Positions 24,891-40,121 of a stretch of DNA of 64,000 nt are shown in pieces. Position 1 is the first letter of the stretch. The number at the start of each line of letters is the position of its first letter. The notes beneath the pieces are model-generated. The model searched no databases. It was not told the DNA's origin and saw only the letters and a program-made list of their open reading frames with translations. Made by a program: the position numbers and the translations under genes. The stretch comes from Capnocytophaga haemolytica (lineage in GTDB: Bacteria; Bacteroidota; Bacteroidia; Flavobacteriales; Flavobacteriaceae): assembly GCF_001553545.1 (NCBI RefSeq), contig NZ_CP014227.1, forward strand, positions 1,594,501 to 1,658,500, in the 5' to 3' direction.

Positions 24891-25421
24891 ATGCACTATA
24901 CACTATTTGAAGAGCATTTTACTTCCGTACACTTCGCTAAGGGCGATTACATTACCCGCGCAGGCGACGTCGAGCACAACCTCTATTACATCGAGGAGGG
25001 CATTGTGCGCTACTTCTATTACAACCCCGAGAGTGATAAGGAAACCACAGTGGATTTTACTTTTGCGGGGGAGTTCTGTCTCTCCTACGCCTCTTATGTG
25101 CAACAGACGCCCTCATTAGTCAATATGCAAGCCTTAGAGGAAATCACCGCCTATAAGATAAGTCGCGAGGAATTAGAGCAGCTACTCACTCACCCCGATT
25201 ACCTAAAAGTAAAAGTGGAAATCCTTGAAAAGCTTCTTATCGAAAAGATGCAAAAAGAAGCCCAATTGCTCACCCAATCGCCAGAGGAGAACTACCGCTA
25301 CCTCCTTGAGAAAGAACCCCGCCTGTTGCAGTGTGTGCCGCTGAAATACATCGCTTCGTATATTGGCATCACCCCACAAGCACTCAGTAGAATACGAAAC
25401 AGGATAGTGCATAGTTTATAG
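24891..25421 (+). CDS. Crp/Fnr family transcriptional regulator
   Basis: A 176-residue regulator with an N-terminal cyclic-nucleotide-binding-like barrel (VHFAKGDYITRAGDVEHNLYYIEEGIVRYFYY) and a C-terminal winged-helix HTH (LKYIASYIGITPQALSRIRNRI). It lacks the FNR cysteines and the Arg-Ser pocket of true cAMP receptors, so the ligand is unknown; this short form is common in Flavobacteriia. The start at 24891 follows the promoter box at 24859-24866. The flanks contain many copies of phrases such as CACTATACATTATGC, low-complexity material common in this genome. Confidence 0.87.
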   Translation: MHYTLFEEHFTSVHFAKGDYITRAGDVEHNLYYIEEGIVRYFYYNPESDKETTVDFTFAGEFCLSYASYVQQTPSLVNMQALEEITAYKISREELEQLLTHPDYLKVKVEILEKLLIEKMQKEAQLLTQSPEENYRYLLEKEPRLLQCVPLKYIASYIGITPQALSRIRNRIVHSL

Positions 25422-25503
25422 TGTATAGTGCATAGTTAGCGGTTAGTTAGTGTAATAACAAAAATTATTCACTGTGCACTATTCATTATTCACTAAAAAA
25501 TTG

Positions 25504-25511
25504 TACCTTTG
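25504..25511 (+). promoter_or_regulatory. -7 box for structured RNA copy 1
   Basis: TACCTTTG followed by GCCGCCGTGAAATG. The purine-rich GGCGT-AAAT start also follows the TACATTTG box of RNA copy 2, suggesting equivalent start sites. Confidence 0.5.
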
Positions 25512-25517
25512 CCGCCG

Positions 25518-25762
25518 TGAAATGAACTAATCGGATTGTTTAATAACTCAAATAAAGAATTATCGAGATAAAACAAATATAACATATCGAACATAACGCG
25601 TTTAAGCTAACAGACCCTTAAAGTGAAATCTCCAAATTTCAAAAAATGTAGCAGTCAGTTAGTAAATGCTCACGCCGCGAGCGTGGGCTTTTGCTTGTAC
25701 TTATAGCTACATTAGGGATTGGAGACCCTCACTTTAATAAGTAAGCAAAAGCCCTTTTTTTA
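25518..25762 (+). ncRNA. Structured RNA, copy 1 (pseudoknot-like, terminator hairpin)
   Basis: About 245 nt from the promoter-predicted start to a T-run. Three helices nest: 25619-25626 with 25729-25736 (TAAAGTGA/TCACTTTA), 25629-25635 with 25719-25725 (TCTCCAA/TTGGAGA), 25645-25652 with 25706-25713 (AATGTAGC/GCTACATT). Inside is a short hairpin (GCTCACGC/GCGTGGGC). A 12-bp helix 25685-25696/25743-25754 (GGGCTTTTGCTT/AAGCAAAAGCCC) followed by seven T interlocks with the first set, giving a pseudoknot. Copy 2 (37012-37221, minus) has different bases in all three nested helices but still pairs. I do not recognise an Rfam family. It lies 58 nt before the 25820 gene and could be its leader. Confidence 0.75.
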
Positions 25763-25819
25763 TGGCTATACGTTAGCTACGTAACGCACCCTAAGTACGT
25801 AATTTAAACAAATACCATA

Positions 25820-26458
25820 ATGAAAAAACTCGTATTATTATTCGCAGCAGTGTGTCCACTTATCACTTTAGCACAGGACAAAATTATCACTAAAAAAGGC
25901 GAAACCATCACCGCAAAGGTCTTAGAAATCTCTACTAATGAGGTAAAATACAAAAAGGATGACAACCTCAAAGGACCTACTTACATCGCTCAAAAGGCAG
26001 AACTCCAAGCTATAGAGTACGAAAATGGGGCAAAAGAAATATATAGCACAACAACAGCCCCTAAATCCATAACAATAGAGCGTGATGATTACTACGCCGA
26101 TGGTAAACTACTATCCAAGAAATGGGAATTGGAAGAAGTACTTAAAAATGACCCAGAAGCCTACCGATTGTTTCGCAAATCAAATGTTATGAATACTATC
26201 GGTAAAATAATGGTATTTAGTTCAGCAGGATTAGGCTTAGCTACTTTAATTGTCGATAACAATACTGAAAACTTTCCCAGTGGCTTTGTTTATTCCTCTT
26301 TATTGATAGGAGGATTTATTCCAGGAGTGGTCATTAGTCTTACTTCTTCAAATAGATTTGATGAAGCCATAGAGGTCTACAACCACAATCAACAAAAGAA
26401 CATCACTCTTAGCCCTATCATAGGTACAAATAGCATAGGAGTAGCGGTTAAGTTTTGA
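25820..26458 (+). CDS. Exported protein of unknown function
   Basis: A 212-residue protein with a clear signal peptide (MKKLVLLFAAVCPLITLAQ, cleavage after about residue 19). The mature part starts DKIITKKGETITAKVLEI, a small beta-domain seen in many Bacteroidota exported proteins (expression-of-endogenous-signal-type repeats GETI-KVLEI, EVKYKK). Two hydrophobic segments follow (about 132-150 and 158-180), so it may be anchored in a membrane rather than free in the periplasm. It begins 58 nt after structured RNA copy 1. Function not recognised. Confidence 0.65.
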   Translation: MKKLVLLFAAVCPLITLAQDKIITKKGETITAKVLEISTNEVKYKKDDNLKGPTYIAQKAELQAIEYENGAKEIYSTTTAPKSITIERDDYYADGKLLSKKWELEEVLKNDPEAYRLFRKSNVMNTIGKIMVFSSAGLGLATLIVDNNTENFPSGFVYSSLLIGGFIPGVVISLTSSNRFDEAIEVYNHNQQKNITLSPIIGTNSIGVAVKF

Positions 26459-31963: not shown

Positions 31964-32608
31964 ATGTTACAGGATTTACATACCATTCCCATAAATACCG
32001 CTGTGGTAGCAGGGCTTTACCCGCATATCAAGAGCAAGGCGCAAAAGGTTGCCGACTTAGAGCGTGCGGGCAGTCTGATACGCCTGAAGCGCAACCTCTA
32101 TGTGGTTTCGCCCTCTTTAAGCGGCGTGCCACTTTCTACGGAACTTATCGCCAATCAGCTCTATGGTCCTTCGTACCTCTCGTTGCAATCGGCATTGCGC
32201 TATTACGGACTGATACCTGAGGCAGTGTATCAGCACCTATCAATGACCATTAAGCACAGCCGCAGTTTCACCACTCCTGTGGGGCACTTCCATTACCAGC
32301 AATGCACGCGCGATTATTTTGCTATTGGGCTTACTATTGTGCAGCGTACGGGCTATGCTTTTATTATTGCTACCCCCGAAAAAGCCCTTGCCGACCTTAT
32401 CACCTACACTAAAGGACTCAATATGCGCTACCGCAAGGAAATACTCACCTACCTCAAGGACGACCTTCGCCTTGATATGGACGCCTTTTTTGCTATGGAT
32501 GCCACTATATTCGAAGCGTGTGCTGCACTCGGCAAAAAAGCTACCACAATGAAGGCTATTGCTAAGTTGTTGAGGGATCAGAGATCAGAACTGAGTCCTG
32601 ACTTCTGA
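31964..32608 (+). CDS. AbiEi-type antitoxin of a type IV toxin-antitoxin system
   Basis: A 214-residue protein of the AbiEi_4/DUF-type antitoxin family. The N-terminal winged-helix part (QKVADLERAGSLIRLKRNLYVVSP, about 27-50) is the DNA-binding module that represses the operon; ANQLYGPSYLSLQSALRYYGLIPE (about 63-86) and ATPEKALADLI (about 136-146) are diagnostic for AbiEi. It is followed 41 bases later by the nucleotidyltransferase toxin gene. In type IV systems the antitoxin counteracts the toxin without direct binding; phage abortive infection is the known role in some members. Confidence 0.85.
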   Translation: MLQDLHTIPINTAVVAGLYPHIKSKAQKVADLERAGSLIRLKRNLYVVSPSLSGVPLSTELIANQLYGPSYLSLQSALRYYGLIPEAVYQHLSMTIKHSRSFTTPVGHFHYQQCTRDYFAIGLTIVQRTGYAFIIATPEKALADLITYTKGLNMRYRKEILTYLKDDLRLDMDAFFAMDATIFEACAALGKKATTMKAIAKLLRDQRSELSPDF

Positions 32609-32649
32609 CTACTGACCTCTGCTCCCTAATCACTAACCACTAAGAAAAA

Positions 32650-33474
32650 ATGAACAACATCTATCAATCGATGCTCGCCCCTTACGACCTCAGCAGTGAG
32701 GAGGCACGCCGCAACGCTACCTTTGAGGTCAATCAGTGCCTCATACTCGCAGGGCTTTATCGTGGAGGGTTCTTTGAGGAAGCCGCCTTCTACGGAGGCA
32801 CGTGTCTGCGTATTTTCTATGGCTTAGACCGCTTTAGTGAGGATATGGACTTCTTGCTCTTGCGTCCTCAGCCCGATTTTAACTTTGAGCGTTATTTTCC
32901 TGCTATCCTCGATGAGTTTGCCTTAGTAGGGTGCGATGTGTCGCTCACACGCAAGGATAAAAAGCAGCATACACGCGTAGAATCAGCTTTTCTCAAAGAC
33001 AATATCCACGTATACGACTTGCAGTTCCAAACCGAAAAGAGTATCAAAATAAAGATTGAAGTGGATACCACCTCACCTTTGCAGTTCGAGACTGAGGAAA
33101 AGCTTCTGCTACTGCCCTCATCGTTTATGACGCGTTGCTTCACCCTCCCTGACCTTTATGCAGGTAAGATGCACGCCTTAGCTTTCCGCTCGTGGCGTGG
33201 ACGCGTAAAAGGGCGCGATTGGTACGACTTTGAGTGGTATGTGCGCCATCGTACGCCGCTGAATTTCACGCACCTCCAAGAGCGTATCCGCGAGTTTAAC
33301 CACACTGAGATGACCCGTGAGGAGTATCTTTTGCACTTCAAGGAACGCCTTGCTACCACCGACATCAAAGCCGTAAGGCAAGATGTATTGCCGTTTATCA
33401 AAAATTCGCAAGCACTTGCTATATGGAGTAATGACTATTTTTTACAATTAGCAGATCGTATCGTATGGCAGTAA
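32650..33474 (+). CDS. AbiEii/AbiGii nucleotidyltransferase toxin
   Basis: A 274-residue member of the AbiEii toxin family, whose studied members transfer nucleotides to tRNA acceptor ends. The nucleotidyltransferase core is present: FYGGTCLRIFYGLDR (GGT at 49-51), the Asp pair in RFSEDMDFLL (about 62-70), IKIEVDTT further on as the third acidic site, and the conserved KMHALAFRSWRGRVKGRDWYDFEWYV segment (about 173-199). All key residues are intact, so it is probably active. The 33465 gene begins within its last codons. Confidence 0.88.
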   Translation: MNNIYQSMLAPYDLSSEEARRNATFEVNQCLILAGLYRGGFFEEAAFYGGTCLRIFYGLDRFSEDMDFLLLRPQPDFNFERYFPAILDEFALVGCDVSLTRKDKKQHTRVESAFLKDNIHVYDLQFQTEKSIKIKIEVDTTSPLQFETEEKLLLLPSSFMTRCFTLPDLYAGKMHALAFRSWRGRVKGRDWYDFEWYVRHRTPLNFTHLQERIREFNHTEMTREEYLLHFKERLATTDIKAVRQDVLPFIKNSQALAIWSNDYFLQLADRIVWQ

Positions 33475-36500: not shown

Positions 36501-36893
36501 TTATTTCCTAAAGACTAAGGTTGCATCTGAGGTTTTTATCTTCAGTTCTTGTGATGTCAAAGAGATGAGTTCATTCTTTGTAGTATCACCTTCAACTGTG
36601 ATAAGCAAGTACCCTCCTTCAATTGCAAAGGTTCCTGAAAGATTTTTTAAACTTCCTGTAGAGTAATCAGTCATAGTTACATTACGTTTAGAAAAGGTCA
36701 TAGACGTTTTCTTTACAGTAGCATCTGTAACTACCTGATTGTTTACGGAATAGATATTCCAAGTTCCTTGAATAAGAGCCATATTCCCAGTAAGCTCTAT
36801 TTTTTCTTCTTTTTTGTCTTCACTCTTGCTGCATCCTACAGCCAAGAATAACACACATACAACCATTACGGCAATTTTTAAAATGTTTCTCAT
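36501..36893 (-). CDS. Lipocalin-like lipoprotein
   Basis: A 130-residue lipoprotein with a type II signal peptide and lipobox FLAVGC (Cys20), then a Lys/Glu/Asp linker and a small beta-barrel domain of the lipocalin_4/lipocalin-like type (LIQGTWNIYSVNNQVV ... MTDYSTGSLKNLSGTFAIEGGYLLITVEGD). Short lipoproteins of this kind are common in Bacteroidota with unknown ligands. It lies about 120 nt downstream of structured RNA copy 2 on the same strand, as the 25820 gene lies after copy 1. Confidence 0.75.
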   Translation of the reverse strand: MRNILKIAVMVVCVLFLAVGCSKSEDKKEEKIELTGNMALIQGTWNIYSVNNQVVTDATVKKTSMTFSKRNVTMTDYSTGSLKNLSGTFAIEGGYLLITVEGDTTKNELISLTSQELKIKTSDATLVFRK

Positions 36894-37011
36894 TATAAAT
36901 TGTATTTAATTATACCTACTTGGTAAGGGCTTCGGTATTCCCTAATATATAAAACGCCCTCCGGATAGGCATTCGTATATTCATTTGGAGAACCCTTAAT
37001 TATAGGCATAA

Positions 37012-37221
37012 AAAAGGGCTTTTACTACTTCGTATCCGAGGGAGTCCAAGCCCTGTAATCAAGGTAGCAAAAGCCCACGCTCGCAGCGCAGGCATTTCAC
37101 CAACTACCCCGATTACTTTCTATTTGGACTTTCGGATACAAGGTCTGTTAGCGTAAACGCAAAAATATTTTATTGAAATCTCTTTCTTAAATCTTTCTTA
37201 TAATTCTTCTCATTTTATTTT
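37012..37221 (-). ncRNA. Structured RNA, copy 2
   Basis: Homologue of the RNA at 25518-25762, on the opposite strand. Conserved blocks include GCTAACAGACC, GCGAGCGTGGGCTTTTGCT and AAAAGCCCTTTTTT. The three nested helices re-form with other bases: 37132-37139 with 37032-37039 (GTATCCGA/TCGGATAC), 37124-37129 with 37044-37049 (GTCCAA/TTGGAC), 37111-37116 with 37055-37060 (GTAATC/GATTAC). The terminator-like helix (37062-37076 with 37016-37029) has one G-U pair more than copy 1. A near-ideal promoter precedes it (37228-37259, TTTG-20-TACATTTG). Length from predicted start about 210 nt. Confidence 0.75.
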
Positions 37222-37284
37222 ACGCCGCAAATGTACACCCATATTTTAATCTGTGCAAATTTTTTATGTTAAAAAATTATACAA
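37221..37284 (-). repeat. 64-bp direct repeat L: promoter of structured RNA copy 2
   Basis: Contains TTTG (37259-37256) and TACATTTG (37235-37228) on the minus strand. Nearly identical to 40933-40996 (about four differences, such as ATGTTAAAAA against ACGTTGAAAA). The two copies bracket the broken nuclease gene in the same orientation. Confidence 0.88.
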
Positions 37285-37466: not shown

Positions 37467-38072
37467 TTAATCTCTAAATAAGTAATATGGGTCTTTTATA
37501 AGTACAAATACAGGAATTATAGCTATAGTAGAATCATTTTCATTTGGTATATAATTATATATGGGTTCATTACGTGTAATAAAAAATGTTCTAATTCTAT
37601 AATCTTCATCAACTGATTCACAATAGCTTTTAAACTTATTAATGTTATTTTTGCACCAATCATCTCTTTTTTGAACTTTCGGGAGACTTTTTTTTATCTT
37701 TTCATTCTGTGATATATAGTCATAGACTGTTCTTGCCTCATAATAATCTTTTATTTCGATACAGATTATCTGTTTTAATTTTGTGTTTATAATGAGTAAA
37801 TCTATATCTCCCAAATCAGTATTTGCTGATAATAATTTATTTGGCTTAACTAAAACTTCTTTTTTTACTATAAGAGAAGAGTCGTCTAAGTCAATATAAT
37901 ATTGATATAGTTGTTCAGTAAAGTATTCTCCTTTTTTCTTATTGATATCACCAATAAAACTTTTCATTTCATTAGACTTTGCTCGTAGTGTTCCATTTGA
38001 TATTCTTTCTCCCAATAAAGATACACTTATATGTAAAATTTCTATTGAGAAGAATATAGTATTATTATACAA
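37467..38072 (-). pseudogene. C-terminal piece of a broken nuclease gene (PD-(D/E)XK domain)
   Basis: A 201-codon open segment with a TTG at its 5' end. It is in the same frame as the 38133-40121 segment and separated from it by one TAA; the sequence between reads on as coding (ELFFQRFNRLPQIITRPWVL). The core GDIDLLIINTKLKQIICIEIKDY carries D91 and E106-x-K108, a PD-(D/E)XK active site as in NERD-like or Card1-like nucleases; all residues are intact. I treat it as the C-terminus of one gene of about 1,120 codons beginning at 40834. Composition is AT-rich, unlike the housekeeping genes. If the stop is real, the nuclease domain could only be made by reinitiation. Confidence 0.75.
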
Positions 38073-38132
38073 TACCCAAGGTCTTGTAATTATTTGTGGT
38101 AGTCTATTAAAGCGCTGGAAAAATAATTCAGA

Positions 38133-40121
38133 TTATGGTAACTTTTGCTTATCATTTAAATCATTTTTTAGCACAAAAGACTTATAGAAAGCATTTTTTT
38201 CCACTTCATTTAACTTGTGTAAGATCGAATCAAATTTATTTTTTGATAATTCTACAAGTGAAGTATTTTTATTAATAGAATAATCTGAGCATGTAGACAA
38301 TATACTCTTATAAACATCAAAACTTATACCATATTCTTTTATAAATGCCTGAAGGAAGTTCTTATCAGATACATCTAATATAAATGGAGGAAGTAACTGA
38401 TGCTGTTTTTCAAGTAGTTTTAAGTCTGCAATCTCTCTTTTTCTTAAGGTAAGGAAATATTCATTATTTATTCTGAAAAATATATCAGGAATTACAATTC
38501 TACCATTTTTAAGTATTGTAAGTTCCGTATTTGGGATTTCATTATTAAACATATCCATATAACTTCCCATTTTAGCTATATGATACATTAAAGCAAATAG
38601 CTTATCCCTATCTTCTAATGAAGAACTGCTTGATTGATTATCAATATTATTTAGAATTATAAATTCTATAATACCTTGAGTAATAATACCTATTGTAGAG
38701 TTTTCACTATTTACACCAAATTGTTGGTCAAGTTCTGTACCAATATATCTGTATGCATTATTTATACTATTAAACCCTTTTCTTATAATCTTTGATTGAT
38801 ATAATGTGCTATAATATATTTTAATTAAAGATTTTAACATTTCTTTAGTATCAAACTTTACTATTAGTGCTTTGACTTCTTGCTGTAAATAATTAATAAT
38901 ACTCTTGATTATTTCTTTAGATTCTATTATTGATAATTTCTTCTCTTTTCCCTTAATATTAAGATATTCTGATATATCTTCGAGAATAATATCTATCCAT
39001 CTGTCATTAAGCTGATGGTTAACAATGTCATTATTTGAATATATAAGGGCATCTTCATTCGTCATTAGAAAATGTCCTGCAGATTCCTTAAACATCTCAT
39101 CAACAACATTGTTAGTTAAAGATATAGAAATCACATTAGCTGATTGTAATAAATGAGTGAAATTTAAAAATAACTTTTTCTCTATATTTTCATACTTTGT
39201 ATTTTTAAAAAGAGTATCTATATCAATAAAAACAATATAATAACCATCTTCCTTTTGTATATCATTTTTATTAGTTAAAACTAATTTAATATCTGTGTCT
39301 TTTTTTAATATATTTATTTCTTTTTTATACCAAGCTGCATACATCCATAAAGCAAAACTCCCTGCTACTTCTAAATAATGCTGTTGAGGATTTTCAGAAA
39401 AGTGAATATACAATTTTTTATTTCCAATCTCTATCATTATAAATTGCTTTTCTTTTCCTGATACTGTTGGAGCATAAATGGGAACCCCTGCAGACAAATG
39501 GAAAATTGGTATTACTTTATTATAATAGGGAGAGTACACATATCTTAAATCTTCATCCATATAATATTTTCTAAGATAAAGTCCTAATCCTATTTCTATG
39601 TATATCATACTAGAGTCAAATAAACCTTCTTGGTAGAATGTCTGCTTATTTTTGAGGTAATAGGTAATAATATCTATATCCTGAGTCATAGGAATCAGAT
39701 TTAATTTCTTCTTGTCTTGAGCATAATAATATAATGTTCTCTTATTAAAATTGATAAAATGTTGCTTAAAAAGTATAATTAAATCATCTATAGTAAAATA
39801 AAGAGTATCTTGAGGATACATTATAAAATATTCATTATCTTCTATTTGTGAACCCACTATAATATGGAGTGTATTCCTACACATAGGAAATTCTTTCCTT
39901 ATACGTGTCTCTACAATTTCTCTTGATTTATCAATACTTACTCCTTTATCTATAAATAGAGAATGAAAACAAAGTATTTTATCTATATCTATTACATAAC
40001 ATAGATATTTGATGTTATCTACTTCGCCAATAAAACCGTTATTATCTCTATTAGTAACTGCAATAATTTCTTTAAAAATACTTTTATGAAATACATTACA
40101 TACTTCTTCTCTCCCAAACAT
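38133..40121 (-). pseudogene. Central piece of the broken nuclease gene, unknown domain
   Basis: A 662-codon open segment. Its frame stays open upstream of the first ATG (40121) through about 45 more codons (KSEFGYFVLYPSGLLHSAYNQ) up to the A7 run at about 40265-40271, where the 190-codon segment ends in another frame. No recognised domain; Ile/Asn/Lys-rich with mixed alpha and beta segments, and a strand-rich N-terminal half. At the 3' end it stops at TAA 38133 while coding character continues in the same frame. It joins the two neighbouring pieces into one disrupted gene. Confidence 0.7.

Follow-up and report, generated by a model that had tools for sequence, protein, structure and literature searches.

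Do two similar stretches of the Capnocytophaga haemolytica genome encode one structured RNA, and what would such an RNA do for the genes behind it? Both lie in a window of 64,000 nt (the whole stretch of DNA analysed; contig NZ_CP014227.1, positions 1,594,501 to 1,658,500). A sequence-only reading of this window had described them as two homologous structured copies, at 25518-25762 on the plus strand and at 37012-37221 on the minus strand, that follow promoters, keep an interlocking fold with different bases, and may act as small RNAs or as leaders of the genes behind them.

Two copies of one element in the window

Sequences, helices, and coordinates of both copies agree with that description. 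The promoter boxes, TACCTTTG of sigma-A type ahead of copy 1 (25504..25511, plus strand) and TACATTTG ahead of copy 2 (37228..37235, minus strand), were read from the sequence and fit the proposed 5' ends. The start codons, placed earlier at 58 and about 120 nt from the copies, lie 58 nt (25761 to 25820) and 116 nt (37010 to 36893) downstream. The gene behind copy 1 (25820..26458, plus strand) encodes 212 aa with an N-terminus that looks exported by eye and has no Pfam match, and the gene behind copy 2 (36501..36893, minus strand) encodes a lipoprotein-like N-terminus, also judged by eye, and a Lipocalin_4 domain.

Along the RNA, the elements are arranged in the order P0a, A1, A2, A3, P0b, H4, Ta, A3', g, A2', g2, A1', Tb, and T-run. 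In copy 1 (all on the plus strand), P0a (25598..25617) is a conserved 5' element that forms the 5' strand of the first pseudoknot, as identified by pairing and covariation. It is followed by the 5' strands of A1 (25618..25626), A2 (25629..25635), and A3 (25645..25652), which were placed by the covariance model and the alignment. The A3 loop contains P0b (25653..25670), the 3' strand of pseudoknot 1, which pairs with positions 25598-25616 of P0a at -15.0 kcal/mol (5 of 2000 shuffles as good), and Ta (25684..25704), the 5' arm of the terminator helix T, or pseudoknot 2, recognized by pairing and covariation. Hairpin H4 (25668..25688) and the 3' strands of A3 (25706..25713) and A1 (25729..25737) were located from the alignment of members. 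A mini-hairpin, g/g2 (25714..25728), has the 3' strand of A2 (25719-25725) as its loop and is identified by g:g2 covariation. Tb (25738..25754), the 3' arm of the terminator helix, lies outside A1, and the T-run at 25755..25761, a usual feature at this place in members, marks the predicted transcript end.

Copy 2 has the same parts on the minus strand: P0a, the conserved 5' element (37141..37160), A1 (5' strand 37132..37140, 3' strand 37031-37039), A2 (37124..37130 and 37043-37049), A3 (37109..37116 and 37055-37062), P0b (37091..37110), H4 (37073..37093), Ta (37063..37077), the mini-hairpin with the A2 3' strand as its loop (37040-37054), Tb (37016..37029), and the T-run (37010..37015). P0a, A1, A2, A3, and Ta were assigned here by pairing energy, and P0b pairs with P0a at -19.0 kcal/mol (2 of 2000 shuffles as good). 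The interlocking terminator helix proposed earlier is found in both copies, at -22.4 kcal/mol in copy 1 (25684-25704 with 25738-25754) and -20.8 kcal/mol in copy 2 (37077-37063 with 37029-37016), and was equalled by 0 of 2000 shuffles in each. All helices of the earlier fold stand; it was incomplete in that it lacked the 5' pseudoknot P0, the mini-hairpin around A2', and H4.

Within each copy, A1, A2, and A3 pair at -5.7 to -12.0 kcal/mol. Across the copies, A1 and A3 do not pair (-1.6 to +0.4 kcal/mol), and A2 pairs weakly (-4.4 and -4.5 kcal/mol), much less well than within a copy. Because A1 and A3 pair only, and A2 mostly, within their own copy, the differences between the copies are compensatory, and these energies agree with the claim that the three helices keep one fold with different bases. 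H4 pairs equally well across copies (-12.7 and -13.0 kcal/mol) and is therefore no evidence when the two copies are considered alone.

A third copy was not found in this genome by blastn, whose other matches were short, by an exact pattern, or by either of the covariance models described below; the sole extra covariance-model match there was an antisense match of copy 1. Other features of the window were recorded as well. An AT-rich imperfect inverted repeat (25409-25497) separates the gene of a cNMP-binding regulator from the promoter of copy 1; this repeat, not the RNA, is the source of weak let-7 and mir matches (25410-25508), which were rejected. Between both RNA copies lies a gene pair (31964-33474), the second gene of which has an AbiEii nucleotidyltransferase domain; the first has no Pfam match, and we take it to resemble an AbiEi partner. 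Upstream of copy 2, adjoining genes for 201 and 662 aa (37467-40121, minus strand), both without a Pfam match, possibly form a defence pair.

Extent of the family

The covariance-model search of Capnocytophaga and wider genomes that had been suggested as a check revealed a family. A first model, built from copy 1 alone, detected copy 2 with an E-value of 1.9e-20 and gave matches in 11 of 20 genus genomes (E<=1, with the own genome, weak matches, and strand artefacts included). A second model was built from 11 relatives and contained only the pairs of A1, A2, A3, and H4, so that P0, T, and g:g2 were absent from the search. With this model, 17 of the 20 Capnocytophaga genomes matched at E<=1, and in 16 the best E-value was 1e-9 or less. 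Matches were also obtained in 58 of 299 genomes of the family sample (50 of 236 genera) at E<=0.1, in 86 of 395 genomes of the class sample (56 of 197 genera) at E<=1e-3, and in 45 of 395 genomes of the phylum sample at E<=1e-3, four of which lie outside the class. The richest genome (G404) has 11 matches, comprising nine sense copies, one antisense match, and one weak match. Antisense matches are counted in these match totals and were not taken as members, because they are due to the inverted-repeat symmetry of the RNA.

Simpler searches missed the family outside the window. Using copy 1 as the query against 397 family genomes, blastn returned, copy 2 aside, only stretches of 19-41 bases, and gave nothing in phages or plasmids. 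The exact pattern found only the two copies among the 20 genus genomes and had no match in viral contigs. Scanning genome contigs with an 18-mer yielded four Capnocytophaga records and six others, which were taken as chance (about 7 expected by our own estimate).

Some loci carry the RNA in more than one form. Two loci each have two copies a few kb apart, with duplicated starts of the downstream genes in one (L143, on G142:C1) and near-identical RNAs in the other (L270, on G731:C5), which suggests local duplication. In L101 and L092, partial repeats of the 5' half of the RNA itself can be seen by eye downstream, directly before the start codon of the next gene in L092 and within about 80 nt in L101.

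Covariation of nested helices and pseudoknots

The alignment comprises 101 members, 100 of them distinct, and leaves aside 18 further loci (among L178-L208), L092 (weak, E 0.0055), and the weak L057 and L060. Over these 101 members, 96.8% of the cells of the four nested helices are paired, and 30 of the 32 nested pairs have two-sided changes. The covariation score is 0.866, compared with 0.217 in shuffles and at most 0.111 when the alignment is slid. Homologues whose arms vary without compensation had been named beforehand as speaking against a structured RNA; among these members, compensation is nearly complete.

Since the alignment was fitted to the nested helices, pairing was tested separately by a partner swap, in which cognate partners were compared with partners permuted within groups among 88 members below 80% identity. 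The permutation groups of this first set were defined by the A2 sequence, and a second, distant set was permuted over all rows; relatedness is not fully corrected in either. The distant set consists of 28 members from families other than that of the window, used in neither the model nor the first test. Cognate partners were strongly preferred in all nested helices of the first set (z -27.4 for A1, -22.5 for A3, -9.6 for A2, and -6.3 for H4) and of the distant set (z -16.8 for A1, -13.0 for A2, -15.9 for A3, and -5.9 for H4). The same holds for the pairings that were not in the search model. P0, which joins the conserved 5' element to the stretch ahead of H4, had a z of -15.4 in the 88 members and -8.4 in the distant 28; T, between the H4-Ta side and the 3' arm, had -14.0 and -10.7; and g:g2 had -7.9 and -3.4. 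The six non-pair controls of the first set stayed within 1.6 (z -0.1 for A3:A1p), as did the five of the distant set; the control five:in3 was equalled by 99 of 2000 permutations in the first set, a borderline result, and was null in the distant one.

An energy of -10 kcal/mol or lower was reached by P0 in 87 of the 88 members and by T in all 88, with a median of 17 base pairs each. Each of the two helices interlocks with the A stem, P0 on one side of H4 and T on the other; covariation in both sets upholds the pseudoknot-like topology noted earlier. The T-run and the sequence of the 5' element, as opposed to the pairing of P0, T, and g:g2, sit in model columns, and their presence in members is therefore partly by construction.

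How one molecule could accommodate both pseudoknots is a question of geometry. P0a and A1 are joined by a short linker or none, as are A1' and Tb; a straight A stem of about 23 bp would therefore hold the P0 strands far apart. It could hardly carry P0 and T at once, and a bend at g/g2 is assumed. If g:g2 formed and A2 were a helix with the loop strand, the ends of A3' and A1' would meet, and A1 and A3 would lie side by side, which would permit both pseudoknots. Otherwise, P0 and T would alternate with part of the A stem or with a rod in which P0b pairs with Ta. This rod is present in the default fold, from a folding program that cannot draw pseudoknots. Its pairing, in5:in3, covaries with a z of -7.4 overall and -4.7 in distant members, and part of it merely extends H4; when it is split, the proximal part has a z of -5.1 and the distal part -3.1. 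Away from H4, the rod is weakly supported as a conserved alternative.

Promoter, T-run, and gene order

The box TAnnTTTG is the flavobacterial sigma-A promoter box according to PMC9723704. It occurs 20-130 nt upstream of the RNA in 71 of 101 members, where mononucleotide shuffles give 9.0, and is lacking in the other 30; among distant members, 19 of 31 have it. Tb is followed by at least four consecutive T in 95 of 101 members and 29 of 31 distant ones. The next gene lies on the same strand in 89 of 99 loci, at a median of 91 nt, and was called on the opposite strand in 10, using a simple longest-ORF script. The previous gene shows no preference (48 same, 51 opposite strand). The promoter and strand counts over 101 rows include close relatives; after dereplication, the next gene is on the same strand in 78 of 87 loci and the previous gene is split 40 to 46.

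Many loci outside Capnocytophaga have a divergent small HTH-like gene, which mostly starts about 115-148 nt upstream of the RNA (the one tested matched HTH_26), and the next gene may then be as far as 782 nt away. From the RNA to the start codon, the box is at background, with 5 of 50 near-gene loci (3.0 expected) and 1 of 21 divergent-small-gene loci (3.5 expected), counts that see TAnnTTTG only and would miss other promoter types; upstream of the RNA, the same comparison gave 37 of 59 and 25 of 28. With no enrichment of the box in this interval, transcription of the gene would depend on read-through of the terminator. The element has sequence features of an attenuator or riboswitch-type leader: an upstream promoter, a structured leader, a terminator-like helix, a T-run, and a co-directional gene. 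Right behind the promoter, most of the ten folded loci, all of one type, have a small 5' hairpin, which is weak (-2.0 to -3.9 kcal/mol). In nine loci (L108, L110, L118, L120, L121, L123, L126, L127, and L128), palindromes that differ by locus were seen by eye ahead of the promoter of the RNA, as though every divergent small regulator had an operator to itself.

Genes behind the RNA

The genes behind the RNA are diverse and include genes for lipoproteins. Pfam matches include DNA methylases (L055, L244, L248, and L249), an EcoRI methylase (L091), a NucS-like nuclease (L046), an IIGP-type GTPase (L096), a subtilase (L107), leucine-rich-repeat proteins (L050 and L085), DUF805 proteins (L157 and L197), an Hcp-like protein barely above the cut-off (L122), TonB receptor plugs (L108, L118, and L128), and sigma-70 factors (L120, L123, L127, and L173). 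In three of the scans, 13 of the 30 downstream proteins had no match. In loci with a divergent small gene, HsdM and a cytosine methylase are encoded behind it (two tested genes with a match, one without). No single pathway shared by the downstream genes was found, and this diversity argues against one metabolite pathway, unlike the situation in metabolite riboswitches.

In three loci (L131-L133), the RNA lies 98-133 nt before a sigma-70 gene, which is followed by a gene for a 365-aa protein, with a divergent small HTH-like gene opposite. The one 365-aa protein tested had a weak OrfB_IS605 match, and a search with no positive control found a homologue in 0 of the 20 genus genomes. We take this operon of sigma-70 and OrfB-like genes to resemble RNA-guided transcription loci.

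Comparisons of loci point to exchange of the cargo behind the RNA. The same site has different cargo in L071 and L073, and in L063 and L065 compared with L064, and the same cargo occurs at different sites in L062 and L064. Between L062 and L063, identity (92%) is limited to the element, from -5 to +3. Inspection of the gene maps revealed no recombinase gene that constantly adjoins the RNA.

The segment downstream of the terminator

The 3' arm of the terminator helix also pairs with the first 40-60 nt after the T-run, with a z of -7.5 in the 88 members, -7.6 in 46 non-Capnocytophaga members, and -4.0 in the distant 28. Judged by eye, this partner of Tb often lies in a hairpin loop, UUUGGnnYUG. 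At least 7 contiguous Watson-Crick pairs are present in 14 of 84 members (4.2 expected); the pairing is therefore not shared by all members, and no clear example is seen in copy 1. Through this pairing, the RNA is connected with the leader of the gene that it precedes. Other parts of the RNA gave no significant signal against the downstream sequence (z -1.5 for P0a, -0.5 for H4p+in3, and -0.8 for A1A2) or, for A2p..A1p, a weak one (z -2.6); a first duplex test of the RNA against the downstream sequence in 58 loci gave no clear signal beyond a small one for Tb. Because the partner of Tb is transcribed later than the terminator, it comes too late to prevent a first termination event. In L244, L248, and L249, an A-run directly ahead of the DNA methylase start codon can, by eye, pair with the T-run, which would form a hairpin around the terminator end.

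The Rfam motif DUF805b lies downstream of the RNA in six Capnocytophaga loci. Across the 20 genus genomes, 19 of its 66 matches are just downstream of the RNA on the same strand, and 47 have no adjoining match to the RNA. Among 21 of the latter loci that were read, one (L236) has a truncated RNA, of which only the 3' half is present, followed by DUF805b and a DUF805-like gene; no RNA copy was seen by eye in the other 20. DUF805b has no match in the genome of the window, and in the genus it adjoins the RNA and is not inside the element. Since most of its matches have no adjoining RNA, DUF805b was rejected as a candidate 3' part of the family.

Relation to known RNAs

The RNA family is absent from Rfam 15, and no description of it was found in literature searches. 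The comparison with Rfam, including the Flavobacteria motifs, had been proposed alongside the model search. At gathering score, Rfam 15 gave one tRNA only in the window. With E-values up to 10, the matches overlapping either copy stayed far under threshold: isrK (15.0 bits of 50) on copy 1, and suhB/mmgR (18.5 of 41) and BSR0626 (17.3 of 155) on copy 2. In 49 related loci (E up to 0.5), nothing matched over the RNA, and DUF805b matched downstream in six. Flavo-1 (RF01705), 6S-flavo (RF01685), and Bacteroidales-1 (RF01693), which are structured RNA candidates of Bacteroidetes according to PMC2864571, do not appear in the match lists of the window and the 49 loci. A term search of two genome surveys of new RNAs (PMC11109978 and PMC8632094) gave no mention of Bacteroid-, Flavobact-, Capnocytophaga, or Cytophag-. 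In F. psychrophilum, 64 structured 5' regions and 85 new RNAs are described in PMC9723704, and a member of the family may be among them. Rfp18, a Flavobacterium small RNA, is likewise flavobacterial, structured, conserved, and independently transcribed; it differs in that PMC9723704 describes it as conserved within its genus and predicts mRNA targets for it in trans.

Several known systems resemble the RNA in part. DUF805b (RF02914, clan CL00115, Cis-reg), reportedly first described in a 2017 survey, also occurs in leaders of accessory or exported-protein genes in the same genomes; however, it is a 35-nt hairpin that mostly has no such RNA beside it. In preQ1 and SAM-II riboswitches, the leader RNA likewise has a pseudoknot helix that can carry the expression decision, whereas here no Rfam riboswitch reaches threshold, the genes share no pathway, and two pseudoknots flank an internal hairpin. 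Nuclease-dead Cas12f together with a sigma factor performs RNA-guided transcription, and the sigma and OrfB-like pairs and the TonB receptors behind some copies resemble such loci; in contrast, this RNA is common in Capnocytophaga, whose 20 genomes gave no such protein (in the search with no positive control), and has no guide-like end.

Possible functions of the RNA

We lean narrowly towards reading the element as a cis-acting structured leader, in which a pseudoknotted terminator would gate read-through into accessory genes. A leader of about 150-170 nt plus a 5' extension would be transcribed from its own upstream promoter and fold into A1-A2-A3 with the mini-hairpin g/g2, with two interlocking helices flanking H4: P0, from the 5' element to the A3 loop, and T, from the A3 loop to the 3' end. 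As T is followed by a T-run, it would be an intrinsic terminator with its 5' arm inside the fold. Full folding would allow T to form, and transcription would end; if the fold failed or were displaced, for example by the rod of P0b with Ta, the polymerase would read into the accessory gene. In the read-through transcript, the downstream segment could hold on to Tb and might thereby keep the leader from refolding. The fold with both pseudoknots, the placement of promoter and T-run, the orientation of the genes, and the covariation of Tb with the downstream segment come out of the computations; that the RNA terminates and switches, and in which direction, is what we infer from them. The RNA probably decides whether transcription continues into the downstream genes. 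The diversity of these genes permits the speculation that the signal reflects the state of the cell or the entry of foreign DNA.

The main rival is a stand-alone, stable small RNA that is transcribed and terminated as a unit and base-pairs in trans or at its own locus, where Tb or a toehold would pair with the hairpin loop in the downstream leader and leaky termination would read the genes. The own promoter and T-run, the weak 5' hairpin after the promoter in most of the ten folded loci, the covariation of Tb with the downstream segment, and the UUUGGnnYUG loops, which by eye suggest a recognition loop, all speak for such an RNA. However, the partner of Tb occupies a fixed place in the same locus, the downstream gene is co-directional in 89 of 99 loci, a transcript carrying the partner without the RNA has no enriched promoter box to start from, and long contiguous pairing is limited to the 14 of 84 members mentioned above. 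We consider the small RNA unlikely, though the most serious competitor. Since the gene order is fixed and read-through would be needed, the leader is preferred over a free small RNA among the two options in the sequence-only reading.

It is improbable that the element is instead a recombination hinge or cassette border, that is, conserved DNA before exchangeable cargo with RNA structure as a by-product. The exchange of cargo at one site (L071/L073; L063 and L065/L064), the shared cargo elsewhere (L062/L064), the identity of L062 and L063 limited to the element, and the downstream partial repeats of the 5' half (L101 and L092, by eye) would fit a hinge, but compensatory change in every helix, together with promoter and T-run, indicates an RNA, the gene maps show no constant recombinase neighbour, and homologous recombination at a conserved leader would look identical. 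Slightly less probable still is a scaffold or guide for a protein, such as the OrfB-like protein encoded with a sigma factor. An ordered fold could bind a protein, and the gene order of L131-L133, with the weak OrfB_IS605 match of one 365-aa protein, is in line with this idea; against it, the 365-aa homologue is found in 0 of 20 genus genomes (weak evidence, given the lack of a positive control), 17 of which match the RNA model at E<=1, and the RNA has a T-run, not a guide-like tail, at its end.

Returning to the gated leader, a broader and doubtful proposal is that the family is a phylum-wide class of self-knotted leaders that acts as one common gate on horizontally moving accessory genes. 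Such a leader would have to complete itself to terminate, and its cargo (restriction-modification systems, surface proteins, receptors, and RNA-guided transcription operons) would be read only when a shared cellular state or ligand blocked folding. An RNA of such size in 86 of 395 class genomes, unmatched in the RNA library, would be a large addition to the annotation of Bacteroidota, and the fold offered for it has two pseudoknots flanking a hairpin. The RNA would also point to a common control layer over defence, surface, and other accessory genes.
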